NCBI RefSeq assembly: GCF_030127105.1
Contig: NZ_CP126161.1
Location: forward strand, 2,542,001 to 2,606,000
From: Haloarcula pelagica
GTDB lineage: Archaea > Halobacteriota > Halobacteria > Halobacteriales > Haloarculaceae
Reading direction: 5' to 3'
Length of the DNA: 64,000 nt
Below are positions 9,057-31,152 of the stretch, one piece after another. Each line of letters starts with the position of its first letter. Position 1 is the first letter of the stretch. A model generated the notes under the pieces. The model saw only the letters and a program-made list of their open reading frames with translations. It made no database searches and had not been told where the DNA came from. The position numbers and the translations under genes were made by a program.

Positions 9057-9707
9057 TCAGGCGACCCGGCCCGACAGCAGGCCCAGGTAGCCACCGGCCA
9101 GCGTCTCGTAGCGACGGTCGACGGTCCGCTCGGCGAGTCGCTCGCGTGCGGCCCGGACCCGCCGCTCGAAGGCGGTCGCCTGCGAGTCCCGGGCGAGCCG
9201 ACTCCCCGGCGAGGAGAGCCGGACGAACCCCTCGAAGGCGACGTTCAGCGGCGCGGCGGCGGCCGCCTCGCTGCGCTGGAAGTTCAACAGCGCTACCCGA
9301 CCGCCGGGGCCGACGGTGTCACACCACCGGTCGACGACGGGTTCGGGGTCGGGGAACAGACCCGCGACGAAGGTCGCCAGCACCGCGTCGGCGTCGGTGA
9401 CCGGCGGCCGCGCGGCGTCGCCCTGGACGTAGTGGACGCCGTCGCCGGCCCTGTCGGGGTGGTGTCGGGCCTGGTCGACCATCTCCCGTGTGAGGTCGAT
9501 CCCGAGGACGGTCCCCCCGGGGCTGACCCGCTCACGGAGATGCGGGACGTTCGCACCGGTGCCACAGCCCATCTCGACGATCGTCTCGCCGGGCGACAGC
9601 GCCAGCGATTCGACGGCCCGGGCCCGCCAGGAGCCGACAAAGGGGAGCGAGGCGACGGCGTCGTAGAGGCGCGCCCACCGGCCGTAAAACGCCTGCACGT
9701 CGGTCAC
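9057..9707 (-). CDS. Class I SAM-dependent methyltransferase
   Basis: 216 residues. SAM-binding motif I is VEMGCGTGANV near residue 45, followed by an acidic strand end GIDLTREMV and motif GDAARPPVTDAD; the fold is that of UbiE/COQ5-like methyltransferases. It begins with GTG (9707-9705) overlapping the TGA stop of thiR by 3 nt (GTGA), so it is the last member of the dcd-thiR translationally coupled unit. Substrate unknown. The tail GGYLGLLSGRV may form a short amphipathic membrane contact. Confidence 0.82.
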   Translation of the reverse strand: MTDVQAFYGRWARLYDAVASLPFVGSWRARAVESLALSPGETIVEMGCGTGANVPHLRERVSPGGTVLGIDLTREMVDQARHHPDRAGDGVHYVQGDAARPPVTDADAVLATFVAGLFPDPEPVVDRWCDTVGPGGRVALLNFQRSEAAAAAPLNVAFEGFVRLSSPGSRLARDSQATAFERRVRAARERLAERTVDRRYETLAGGYLGLLSGRVA

Positions 9708-10600
9708 AACAGCTCACGCGCGCGCTCGGCGACGGTGACGGCGTCCGGTCCCAGCACGTACACGACCGGCTCGACACCCATCCCGCCGGTCTGGTAGAGC
9801 ACGTCGGCGTCGGGCGTCTCGGCCAGGGCCGCCGCGACACCCGTCTCGACGCTCGCTTCGGCGTCGAACTCGGCGGTCGTGTAGCCGGCTTCGGCCAGCG
9901 CCGTCACGATGGCCTCGTCGTAGCGGACGTTCAGCGCCGCTCGTGCGTCGCTACCGGCCGCACGAGCCGCGAGCAACAGCGACGCGACGTGTTCGCTGAC
10001 GCCGAACTCCGGGTCGGCGGGGATCGTTGCCCGGCCCTTCACGTCCAGGATACGGCCCGGTACCGCGGCGACATCCTCGATACTGTCGCCCTCGGGGAGC
10101 GCCTCGACGAGGTTCGAGCCGACCGCGGGGATCAGCGTCGCGAACCCGCTCGTGTTCTCTAAGACCTGGAGTCCCCGCCGGACCGACGAGAGGGCCTGCT
10201 CGGCCGCCCGCAGCGTCGAGTCCGGATCGTGGACCGCGAACTCGCCCTCGTACTCGGCCAGCGCCGGCACCCGCTGTTCGTGGAGCTGGGCCAGCAGTCC
10301 ACCTCGTTCGAGTTCGCGGATGAACACCTCCGTCTCGACGAGCGCCTGGACCGAGGTCATCTCGCCGGACGCGAGCCCGTCGGCCAGCCGCTCGACGAGT
10401 TCGGCGAGTCCGCGGTGGTCGAGCAGCTCCGCGTTGCGGTCGACATCGCCGTGGACGTACTTCGAGACGGCGCTCTGGCTGATCCCCAGGTGATCGGCCA
10501 CTTCCGACTGGGTGAGCCCGCGCTCCCGGAGCGCCTCGGCCAGCAGCGACCGGAACGTCGGGAGGAACTCCTCGACGACGACCTCCTCGATGAACCGCAT
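9704..10600 (-). CDS. thiR: ThiR-type transcriptional regulator (HTH plus ThiN domain)
   Basis: 298 residues. An N-terminal helix-turn-helix (about residues 18-50, LRERGLTQSEVADHLGISQS) is joined to a C-terminal domain of the ThiN thiamine-phosphate synthase family (from about 125, with VGSNLVEALPEGDSIEDVAAVPGRI and a conserved ARAAGSDARAALNVRYDE segment). HTH-ThiN fusions are the archaeal thiamine regulators called ThiR; the ThiN part senses thiamine phosphates rather than acting as an enzyme. Its ATG overlaps the TGA of the second 19-codon ORF (TGATG), and a GGAGG lies 9-10 nt upstream, inside that ORF. It is therefore translated as part of a chain starting at dcd. It is not next to thi biosynthesis genes here. 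Confidence 0.85.
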   Translation of the reverse strand: MRFIEEVVVEEFLPTFRSLLAEALRERGLTQSEVADHLGISQSAVSKYVHGDVDRNAELLDHRGLAELVERLADGLASGEMTSVQALVETEVFIRELERGGLLAQLHEQRVPALAEYEGEFAVHDPDSTLRAAEQALSSVRRGLQVLENTSGFATLIPAVGSNLVEALPEGDSIEDVAAVPGRILDVKGRATIPADPEFGVSEHVASLLLAARAAGSDARAALNVRYDEAIVTALAEAGYTTAEFDAEASVETGVAAALAETPDADVLYQTGGMGVEPVVYVLGPDAVTVAERARELL

Positions 10601-10659
10601 CAGTGATCGCCTCCGAACTCACTCGTTCCCAGCCGAGATTCGGACACGAGCGTCCTCAT
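10600..10659 (-). CDS. 19-residue micro-ORF, repeat copy 2, directly before thiR
   Basis: Encodes [19 protein letters not shown]. It starts at ATG 10659-10657, sharing ATGA with the stop of the preceding micro-ORF, and ends at TGA 10602-10600, sharing one base with the thiR ATG. A GGAGG motif six bases before its ATG is contributed by the end of the previous ORF, and its own last codons (TTC GGA GGC) supply the same motif to thiR. It differs from its twin by Asn to Ser and Gln to His. Translation is inferred from the precise start/stop spacing and Shine-Dalgarno placement; the peptide itself has no recognised family. Confidence 0.5.
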   Translation of the reverse strand: MRTLVSESRLGTSEFGGDH

Positions 10660-10733
10660 TGGTCGCCTCCGAACTCATTCGTTCCCAGCCGAGATTCGGA
10701 CACGAGCGTCCTCATTGGTCGCCTCCGAACTCG
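10607..10733. repeat. 56-bp direct tandem repeat, two full copies plus the shared end in dcd
   Basis: The segment TCGCCTCCGAACTC recurs at 10607, 10663 and 10719, exactly 56 bases apart. Copies 10607-10662 and 10663-10718 differ at one base (C or T at the position after CTCA); the third occurrence is the 3' end of dcd. Because 56 is not a multiple of three and each unit has its own ATG and TGA, the repeats create successive overlapping ORFs instead of extending dcd. There is no spacer-like variable part, so this is not a CRISPR. Confidence 0.93.
10656..10715 (-). CDS. 19-residue micro-ORF, repeat copy 1, directly after dcd
   Basis: Encodes [19 protein letters not shown]. Its ATG (10715-10713) shares ATGA with the dcd stop codon, and the last codons of dcd (EFGGDQ) contain GGAGG six bases upstream. 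Its own C-terminal EFGGDQ is identical to the dcd tail, both in peptide and in DNA, which shows the unit arose by tandem duplication that included the dcd 3' end. It is followed without a gap by micro-ORF copy 2. No homologue recognised. Confidence 0.5.
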
Positions 10734-11299
10734 CGATCCCCCTGTATCTTGCTCGCCTGCGGGCCCTTCTGGTCCTGGTACTTCGAGCCCCGCCCCTCTC
10801 CGTAGGGGCGATCGGCTGGGGTCTTCAGCTCTGTGAACGTCAACTGTGAGATGCGCATCCCCGGCGAGAGCGCGACCGGCGCGGTGCCGAGATTCGACAG
10901 TTCGAGGGTGATCTGGCCCTGGTACCCCGGGTCGCACAGTCCCGCAGTCGCGTGGACCACGATCGCCAGCCGACCCAGCGACGACCGCCCCTCGACGTGG
11001 GCGATGAGGTCGTCCGGAATCTCGACGCGCTCGTGGGTCGTCCCCAGCACGAAGTCGCCGGGGTGGAGGATGTACTCGTCGTCGGCGGCGACGACCGTCT
11101 CCTCGACGTAGTCGGCGACCTCCTGCTCGCTGTTGGGGTGGATACACGGGATGTTTGCGTGCTGGAACTCCAGGAACTCCCGTCCCAGTCGGAGATCGAT
11201 GCTGGCCGGTTGGATCTGGATGTCCGGGTCGTCGAGCGGTTCGACGACCAGATCGCCGGCTTCGAGGCGCCGCAGGATGTCCGCGTCCGAGAGGATCAT
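10712..11299 (-). CDS. dcd: dCTP deaminase
   Basis: 195 residues, the usual length of the trimeric dUTPase/dCTP deaminase fold. Recognised by [49 protein letters not shown] and the catalytic region [13 protein letters not shown], whose Glu in LELS matches the general base of archaeal enzymes. It converts dCTP to dUTP (and, in bifunctional archaeal forms, to dUMP) for dTTP synthesis and keeps uracil out of DNA; sequence alone does not decide between mono- and bifunctional. The last residues EFGGDQ are duplicated in the two following micro-ORFs. It heads the chain dcd, micro-ORF, micro-ORF, thiR, methyltransferase. Confidence 0.93.
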
Positions 11300-11365
11300 T
11301 ACCCGACGTAGCGCGACGCGGCGCCTAAAACGTCCCGCCTCGGGGGCGGGCCGTCGTCCCCGAGA

Positions 11366-29451: not shown

Positions 29452-29460
29452 GCAGTTGCC

Positions 29461-29625
29461 GACGGCCGGGCGATCCGTCGGGATCGCTCAGTCGTCGGCG
29501 ACGATCACCGTTCTGTTGCCGAAGGGCAGGCGATCCGTCTGGATCGCTCAGTCGTCGGCGACGATCACCGTTCTGTTGCCGAGGGCCGGGCGATCCGTCT
29601 GGATCGCTCAGTCGTCGGCAACGAT
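29461..29625. repeat. 60-bp tandem repeat, two full copies and a partial third, ending inside leuA
   Basis: Copies at 29461-29520, 29521-29580 and 29581 to about 29625 share GCGATCCGTCTGGATCGCTC and the following TCAGTCGTCGGCGACGATC; copy 1 has one base change in the hairpin loop. The third copy includes the leuA stop codon and its last codons, so the array duplicates the 3' end of leuA outward into the convergent intergenic region. Confidence 0.92.
29470..29607. terminator. Triplicated hairpin between convergent EF-1 alpha and leuA
   Basis: GCGATCC-GTCT-GGATCGC (7-bp stem, 4-base loop; GTCG in copy 1) occurs at 29470-29487, 29530-29547 and 29590-29607. It is self-complementary, so it would form in transcripts from either side. 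It is followed by TTCTGTTGCC on the plus strand but no long T run. A bidirectional terminator or mRNA 3'-end stabiliser is the most likely reading; the function is inference. Confidence 0.45.
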
Positions 29626-31152
29626 CCGCTCGTCGTCGTCGGCGACGAGCCGGTCCATCGCGTCGACCATCGCCCGCACCGACGCGCGGGTGATGTCCGA
29701 GTCGCTGGCCGAGACGCGGACGTGGTTGTCGCCGCGCGACATCTCGATCTCGACGGTGACGACGGCGTCGGTCCCGCCGGTGATCGCGTCGACGTGGTAG
29801 TCCTCCAGGGTCGCGTCGGCGGCGTGAGAGAGCGCCGTCTCGGCGGCGTTCATGGCGGCGTCGACCGGGCCGGACCCGACGGAGGCCTCCTTGCGCTCCT
29901 CGCCGTCGACCGAGAGCCGGACGCTCGCGGTCGGGGTGTCCGAACCGGAGACGGCCGTCAGCCCGAGCAACTCGACGCGGCGGTCCTGCTCCTGGCCGGT
30001 CACGTCGTCGGCGATGGTCAGCAGGTCGGCGTCGGTGACCCGCTTGCCGCGGTCGCCGATCTCCTTGACGCGGGAGACGATCTCCGCGAGCTGGTCGTCG
30101 GTCACTTCCACGTCGTGTTCGTCCAGCGCGGCCTCGACGCCGGCGCGGCCGGCGTGTTTCCCGAGCGCGAGGCGGCGCTCGCGGCCCACCTTCTCCGGCG
30201 GGTACGGTTCGTACATCGCGTCGTCTTTGAGCGTGCCGTCGGTGTGGATGCCGCTCTCGTGGGTGAAGGCGTTCTGGCCGACGACGGCCTTGTTCGGTGC
30301 CAGCGGGATGCCGGTCCGGTTGGCGATCAGGTCCGCCAGGTCGTAGGCCTCGGTCAGGTCCATCGTCTCGACGCCGTAGCCGTGGTCCAGCGCGATGGCG
30401 ACCTCCTCTAAGGCGACGTTGCCGGCCCGCTCGCCGATGCCGTTGATCGTGCCGTGGACCAGATCGGCGCCGGCGGCCACGGAGACCAGCGCGTTCATCA
30501 CGGCCAGCCCGAGGTCGTCGTGGGTGTGAGCGCTGACCGGGCCCAGGTCGGCGAGCCGGTCGACACACTCCAGTGCGCGGTCGGGGGTCGCGTGTCCCAC
30601 CGTATCCGCCCAGCAGATACGGTCGGCGCCGGCCTCCAGGGACGACCCGAGTAGCTCTTCGAGGTAGTCCAGGTCGGCACGGGAGCCGTCCTCGCCGATG
30701 ACCTCGACCCAGAGGCCGTGGTCTTTGGCGTACTCGACGAGGTCCATCGTCGCGGCGACGTTCTCCTCGCGTGAGGTCCCGACCTTCTGCTCGACGTGTC
30801 TGTCGCTGGCGGGGACGACGAGGTTGATCCCGTCGACGCCACACTCCAGGGCGAGGTCGATGTCGTTCTGGATGCCACGGCAGAAACTCGTCACCGTCGC
30901 GTCGAGGTCGAGTTCGGCGACCCGCGAGATGGTCTCGCGCTCGCCGGGACCGGTGCAGGCGCTGCCGGCCTCGATCACGTCGATCTCGGCGTCGTCGAGC
31001 TTGCGGGCGATACGGGCCTTGTCGTCGGGCGTCAGGGAGACGCCGGGGGCCTGCTCGCCGTCGCGCAGGGTCGTGTCCAGGAACTGTACCTCACCGACAT
31101 CTGTGAGGGCACGCGTCGCTGGGTGCCCTCCGAACAATGGGTTCTGACTCAC
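29608..31152 (-). CDS. leuA: 2-isopropylmalate synthase / (R)-citramalate synthase
   Basis: 514 residues starting at GTG (MSQNPLFGGHPATRAL). The HMGL-like TIM barrel shows FLDTTLRDGEQAPGVSL, the metal-binding SAHTHDDLGLA and NGIGERAGNVALEEV; the C-terminal 120 residues are the LeuA allosteric domain (ELLGLTAVSGSDTPTASVRL). It condenses acetyl-CoA with 2-oxoisovalerate (leucine path) or pyruvate (citramalate route to isoleucine); barrel and regulatory domain alone do not settle which. It stands alone, without leuBCD or ilv genes. Upstream is a 24-codon leader ORF with a hairpin; downstream a 60-bp tandem repeat duplicates its 3' end. Confidence 0.88.
   Translation of the reverse strand: MSQNPLFGGHPATRALTDVGEVQFLDTTLRDGEQAPGVSLTPDDKARIARKLDDAEIDVIEAGSACTGPGERETISRVAELDLDATVTSFCRGIQNDIDLALECGVDGINLVVPASDRHVEQKVGTSREENVAATMDLVEYAKDHGLWVEVIGEDGSRADLDYLEELLGSSLEAGADRICWADTVGHATPDRALECVDRLADLGPVSAHTHDDLGLAVMNALVSVAAGADLVHGTINGIGERAGNVALEEVAIALDHGYGVETMDLTEAYDLADLIANRTGIPLAPNKAVVGQNAFTHESGIHTDGTLKDDAMYEPYPPEKVGRERRLALGKHAGRAGVEAALDEHDVEVTDDQLAEIVSRVKEIGDRGKRVTDADLLTIADDVTGQEQDRRVELLGLTAVSGSDTPTASVRLSVDGEERKEASVGSGPVDAAMNAAETALSHAADATLEDYHVDAITGGTDAVVTVEIEMSRGDNHVRVSASDSDITRASVRAMVDAMDRLVADDDERIVADD

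Follow-up and report, generated by a model that had tools for sequence, protein, structure and literature searches.

The window analysed here is a 64,000-nucleotide stretch of a 4.46 Mb genome of the Haloarcula type, and the named relatives nearest to it in a ThiR search were Halomicroarcula and Haloarcula. On its minus strand, a dCTP deaminase gene, two micro-ORFs, a regulator gene and a methyltransferase gene follow one another in the order dcd-ATGA-ORF1-ATGA-ORF2-TGATG-thiR-GTGA-methyltransferase. This two-unit layout, first described in a sequence-only reading of the stretch, is borne out by the sequence (Table 1). The dcd assignment is backed by a match to the TIGR02274 equivalog at 224 bits against a cut-off of 92.8. 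The thiR product is, judged by its N-terminal HTH and C-terminal ThiN domain, a ThiR-type regulator.

Table 1. Features of the dcd-thiR locus and its surroundings in the window.
Feature	Positions	Strand	Evidence or remark
AT-rich box ACGTTTTA, candidate operon promoter	11326-11333	-	34 nt upstream of dcd; resembles archaeal TATA boxes
dcd (dCTP deaminase)	10712-11299	-	C-terminus EFGGDQ*; Pfam DCD 1.3e-47
Module 1, inside dcd tail: GAGTTCGGAGGCGACCAATGA	10712-10732	-	Repeat search
Micro-ORF 1, 19 codons	10656-10715	-	ATGA overlap of its start with the dcd stop
Small hairpin GGACGCTCGTGTCC, unit 1	10698-10711	-	MFE z -1.7, p 0.06
Module 2: GAGTTCGGAGGCGACCAATGA	10656-10676	-	Repeat search
Micro-ORF 2, 19 codons	10600-10659	-	ATGA with the micro-ORF 1 stop; TGATG with the thiR start
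Hairpin GGACGCTCGTGTCC, unit 2	10642-10655	-	MFE z -1.8, p 0.055
Module 3: GAGTTCGGAGGCGATCACTGA, predicted SD for thiR	10600-10620	-	Repeat search
thiR, predicted relay destination	9704-10600	-	HTH and ThiN; Pfam ThiN 5e-53, HTH_3 1e-07
Class I SAM methyltransferase	9057-9707	-	Pfam Methyltransf_11 1.3e-14; GTGA overlap with thiR

The dcd tail itself holds a 21-nt module, so that three GAGTTCGGAGGCGA modules are arranged around two spacers. The module has three matches in the window against 0.12 expected, and none was found elsewhere in the same genome within two mismatches. The 56-bp array scores 245 in TRF, ranking second by strength among the 14 tandem arrays of the window, and micro-ORF 2 differs from micro-ORF 1 by two residue changes, N to S and Q to H. 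The dcd tail encodes the first predicted reinitiation signal, GGAGGCGACCAATGA, and GGAGG precedes all three downstream starts (micro-ORF 1, micro-ORF 2 and thiR). The spacing of six bases that had been given for every ATG holds for the two micro-ORF starts; at the thiR ATG it is 9 nt. Searches of the region found no Rfam family, sigma-70 promoter or terminator. Elsewhere in the window, a second tandem array (29455-29626, 60 bp in 2.9 copies) lies between convergent ORFs. Read on the minus strand, it repeats the ORF tail VIVADD* with its stop codon and holds the palindrome GCGATCCGTCTGGATCGC; it may be another gene tail duplicated with a hairpin.

The junction was compared across Halobacteria in 143 distinct dcd-thiR junctions, which were obtained from ThiR searches in GTDB genomes and from the window's family. 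An exact 4-nt overlap (ATGA or GTGA) joins the genes in 47 of the 143, with approximately 20 more within 5 nt. About half of the junctions touch directly, and the spacers of the remainder run from 10 to 1025 nt. Units are present in ~39 of 141 junctions. Their copy number ranges from 0 to 4 per junction and varies between species, even among close relatives; their length is mostly 56-74 bp. In each unit the module GAGTTCGGAGGCGACCA is followed by an overlapping (A/G)TGA, then by a variable stretch that often forms a hairpin and, ahead of the next module, by a short terminal run like TCGGCGAGAAACGAG or TCTCGGCTGCGAGCGAG. The closest relative found (L070, ThiR 95% identical) has zero units, and its junction is the product expected from recombination between the first and last modules.

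By these sequence comparisons the element is a labile, locus-specific tandem element. A dispersed repeat was considered and rejected: the module, a unit-core pattern and the hairpin loop GCGAGCACTGCGAGCG gave no repeats elsewhere when sought genome-wide, and the unit core patterns were essentially absent away from the locus in 41 genomes. A viral scan with the module matched five contigs. At two loci (L022 and L161) the dcd match stops at residue 164 and the frame continues into the unit, giving the tail RRRVGEKRRGVRRRPVRR; this is possibly a Dcd-unit fusion or a frameshift.

Whether or not units are present, most spacers share an arrangement of overlapping ORFs. Chains were traced from the dcd stop through overlapping ORFs, with each next start allowed to lie at most 4 nt before or 3 nt after the preceding stop. 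Such a chain reaches the thiR start in 61 of the 69 junctions with spacers of 10-330 nt, against 18.0 expected from dinucleotide shuffles of the spacers. Related genomes are not independent and P-values are therefore too small, making the counts the safer statement, and the 55 different spacer lengths soften this non-independence. When one junction is counted per spacer length, 48 of 55 are chained and 13.9 are expected from shuffles. Among co-directional gene pairs with 10-330 nt gaps on the Haloarcula marismortui plasmid pNG700, 2 of 63 were chained, a loose baseline as some of these genes have their own promoters. Along the chains the start/stop offsets are mostly -4, and an SD (at least 4 nt) lies ahead of thiR in 48 of the 61 chained junctions, where 20.4 would be expected. 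The translational relay from dcd to thiR that had been proposed is thus strongly supported by comparison with both shuffled spacers and ordinary pairs.

The lengths of the units follow the same arrangement. Lengths of 56, 62, 65, 68, 71, 74 and 119 nt are all 2 modulo 3, which means that each ORF stops on the next module; those of 63, 66, 67 and 75 nt fall outside this rule. In the 63-nt units (L121, L125, L127, L014) the ORF crosses the modules in another frame and still ends at the thiR start. Spacers with no unit bridge the gap too, for example by encoding MNGTAHGGGRR or MSDRGGQ. Hence it is the chain that is kept, and not the peptide. The near-constant chain across relatives suggests that ribosomes would be handed from dcd to thiR whatever the length of the gap. 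The spacer comparison called for in the sequence-only reading gave a divided answer: in many relatives units are missing or the spacer is unrelated, as expected of a chance duplication, and the unrelated spacers are nevertheless chained. A chance duplication that is never translated agrees with the 102 of 141 junctions that have no unit, and is made very improbable by the chain counts against shuffles and ordinary pairs and by the 2-modulo-3 lengths.

The explanation favoured here, to which we assign a probability of about 0.7, is that the two units form a bridging relay carrying ribosomes from dcd to thiR. Ribosomes ending dcd would reinitiate at the overlapping micro-ORF, which would end 20 or so codons on, over the next SD and start codon, and the hand-over would repeat ORF by ORF until thiR is reached. 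We infer that the micro-ORFs are translated and that thiR is translated by reinitiation. Every unit would supply an SD of its own, formed by GGAGG in the codons of the GGDQ tail, together with a start and a stop that overlap their neighbours, such that gain, duplication or deletion between the 17-21 bp modules would leave thiR joined to dcd. Selection would act chiefly on the chain, rather than on the peptide or the copy number. In Haloferax volcanii, reinitiation is substantially reduced at a gap of 13-14 nt and almost absent at 22-23 nt, with an efficiency that depends on context (PMC10666635), and SDs are used in reinitiation and not at 5'-UTRs (PMC6728339). As reinitiation fails past ~20 nt, a spacer of 60-300 nt would isolate thiR unless micro-ORFs bridge it.

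Junctions in which the chain is broken differ in what lies before thiR. An AT-rich box, defined as eight bases of which seven or more are A/T, some 29-37 nt upstream of thiR, was found in 7 of the 11 junctions whose chain is broken or whose spacer exceeds 330 nt and in 5 of the 132 others (Fisher p 1e-6); the broken class is set by the tight gap limit (at most 3 nt), and two of its cases have gaps of only 4-6 nt. These promoter-like boxes fit a separate promoter where the chain has been lost. All three Halorientalis loci (L018, L019, L025), which are among the 7, have a TTTTTAT box before thiR, with unit-like repeats kept and the chain closed, as if thiR there had gained its own candidate promoter. 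These loci show that units do not form a relay in every case. Two further loci (L165, L175) have spacers of 488 and 949 nt, apparently with an extra gene, and a AATTACTA box before thiR. A promoter within the region serving thiR alone had been named as an observation that would remove the relay idea; in this window no TATA-like box was found before thiR.

The suggestion that the peptides themselves act is disfavoured. The EFGGDQ tail is common to Dcd and most units, as would be expected of an active 19-residue peptide. When compared with the module consensus, however, the dcd tails of unit-bearing genomes vary at third codon positions only (0/0/26 changes at positions 1/2/3), whereas unit modules vary at all three (5/14/35). 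The E and F codons of the modules are not part of the SD and reveal no bias in synonymous usage, and in the 63-nt units the module is read in another frame. The N-terminal halves of the peptides diverge widely across species, and the short relays encode arbitrary peptides. An active peptide is accordingly given very little weight. In L130 and L141 the first and last modules differ synonymously, which was considered as a sign of selection on the peptide and set aside: the L130/L124 comparison suggests that the last module is an old dcd tail, and the differences are then no evidence for a peptide.

The GGDQ-ATGA sequence also joins another ORF pair in relatives: the upstream ORF has the tail LLDLMLGGDQ, the downstream one begins MSDNDQQLRVSKIQNGTVIDHI, and the two are presumably pyrB and pyrI. 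With this occurrence at an unrelated ORF pair, together with the codon pattern, the conserved tail is well accounted for as an SD read in frame. The 18-nt signal TCGGAGGCGACCAATGAG, which comprises GGDQ and ATGA, recurs away from dcd and thiR in many Haloarcula genomes, at a junction of other genes (L208:601-618; L209, minus strand), and is apparently a favoured reinitiation signal. This Haloarcula site was rejected as a dispersed copy of the element, being a different gene junction that shares the SD-ATGA signal.

The hairpins of units 1 and 2 are weak in this window and are the counterpart of a compensated hairpin in other unit classes. Among the 14 units of the 65-nt class, 92% of the cells of an 11-pair hairpin that includes the start codon are paired, with double changes at 6 of the 11 pairs and a covariation score reached by 0 of 500 shuffles. 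The hairpin region over all unit classes has a mean z of -1.18. These results would suit a reading in which the RNA hairpin is the functional part, for example by keeping free ribosomes off the start codon or by steering mRNA processing, with the ORF secondary. This is considered improbable, as p falls below 0.05 in only 28% of units and is about 0.06 in the window, Rfam gives no match, and chained spacers without units have no such hairpin units; the compensation could equally come from palindromic DNA. Folding of a 34-nt segment around the SD was tried as a candidate and was not clear (mean z -0.49). A combined form, in which a hairpin gates the relay and the number of units sets how many ribosomes reach the vitamin regulator, with fast change through module recombination, is likewise thought improbable.

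The gain and loss of units bear on who benefits from the relay. Unit presence changes ~30 times on the dcd tree, close to the 34 changes obtained with shuffled labels, which points to frequent gain and loss or to units moving between species. In several sister pairs (L130/L124, L147/L163) the last module of the unit-bearing genome retains the dcd-tail codons and stop of the empty sister and the first module is generic, a pattern resembling the upstream entry of a cassette that brought its own first module. The empty and filled sister sites match insertion or excision between modules, and equally transfer by recombination; loss of a unit by recombination between modules would be easy to picture. 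The part of the unit that precedes the module was also compared with the dcd tail as a possible copy, and no such origin was detectable (mean z -0.06).

These patterns would be expected if the units were a MIRU-like repeat, selfish or neutral, that invades the dcd tail, perhaps via interspecies recombination, and is tolerated since its ends hold an SD and overlapping start and stop codons. The chain would then be a condition of survival with no gain to the host. In addition to the near-random flips and the apparent cassette entry, direct repeats flank each unit and would permit clean loss, and the L070 junction resembles such an empty site. Against this, dispersed copies are absent from the window's own genome and from relatives, and no transposase or donor was seen. 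We regard this explanation as evenly poised; it shares the mechanism of the relay and differs only by who benefits. Another possibility is that ribosomes are lost at each reinitiation step, such that 0-4 units would fix the ThiR:Dcd ratio. The number of steps does vary while the chain is preserved, and reinitiation efficiency is context-dependent in Haloferax volcanii (PMC10666635). However, units come and go on the dcd tree nearly as often as chance predicts, many relatives have a plain ATGA overlap, and the near-random flipping argues against a conserved set-point for ThiR. Such a dosage device is unlikely, if somewhat less so than a role for the hairpin. Both the passenger and the dosage explanations contain the bridging relay, and the difference is one of benefit only.

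Several known systems resemble the element. The MIRUs (Supply et al. 1997) are described in PMC12548453 as short repeats of mycobacteria, each with an ORF coupled at -4 nt to the gene beside it. Compared by that description, the dcd-thiR units are likewise variable-number tandem intergenic units of tens of bp between operon genes, and the small ORF of each overlaps the flanking stop and start at the NTGA -4 spacing, so that insertion need not silence the neighbour. They differ from MIRUs in being archaeal and confined to a single locus where MIRUs are dispersed, with no evidence of transposition here, in apparently having their own sequence, and in the compensated hairpin of one unit class. 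The element is therefore MIRU-like in its working, yet not a MIRU, because it is not interspersed. No earlier account of a MIRU-like element in archaea was found in the literature searched, which lay mostly outside subscription journals.

Haloarchaeal termination-reinitiation pairs (Huber et al. 2019, 2023; PMC6728339, PMC10666635) share the ATGA and TGATG overlaps and likewise have an SD in the preceding ORF, and their coupling requires that the genes overlap or lie a very few nucleotides apart. The pairs studied there are ordinary genes, whereas the micro-ORFs here restore overlaps over 10-330 nt, often serially. Short upstream ORFs and bicistronic designs, reviewed in PMC12548453, offer a further parallel in a short ORF that solely delivers a ribosome to the next start, as predicted here. 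They are leaders of one gene, whereas at dcd-thiR one to several ORFs link two genes and their number varies. On H. marismortui pNG700 (L204:34197-34293), a sugar ABC permease gene and ugpC are separated by 91 nt, bridged by one 31-codon ORF, with an ATGA overlap at the upstream stop and TAATG at the next start; this is a possible second relay.

The dcd-thiR gap constitutes a natural experiment: its size varies between an overlap of 4 nt and a spacer of over 300 nt, its sequence is often replaced, and the predicted path of the ribosome is kept. This would give evolutionary support to what laboratory work has claimed, namely that ribosomes in archaea do not scan over a gap. The series of 0 to 4 units offers a ready allelic series for the cost of each reinitiation step, and the element itself would represent a MIRU-like element in archaea. 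If the hairpin-gated form of the relay were true, related strains would tune ThiR with the promoter untouched.
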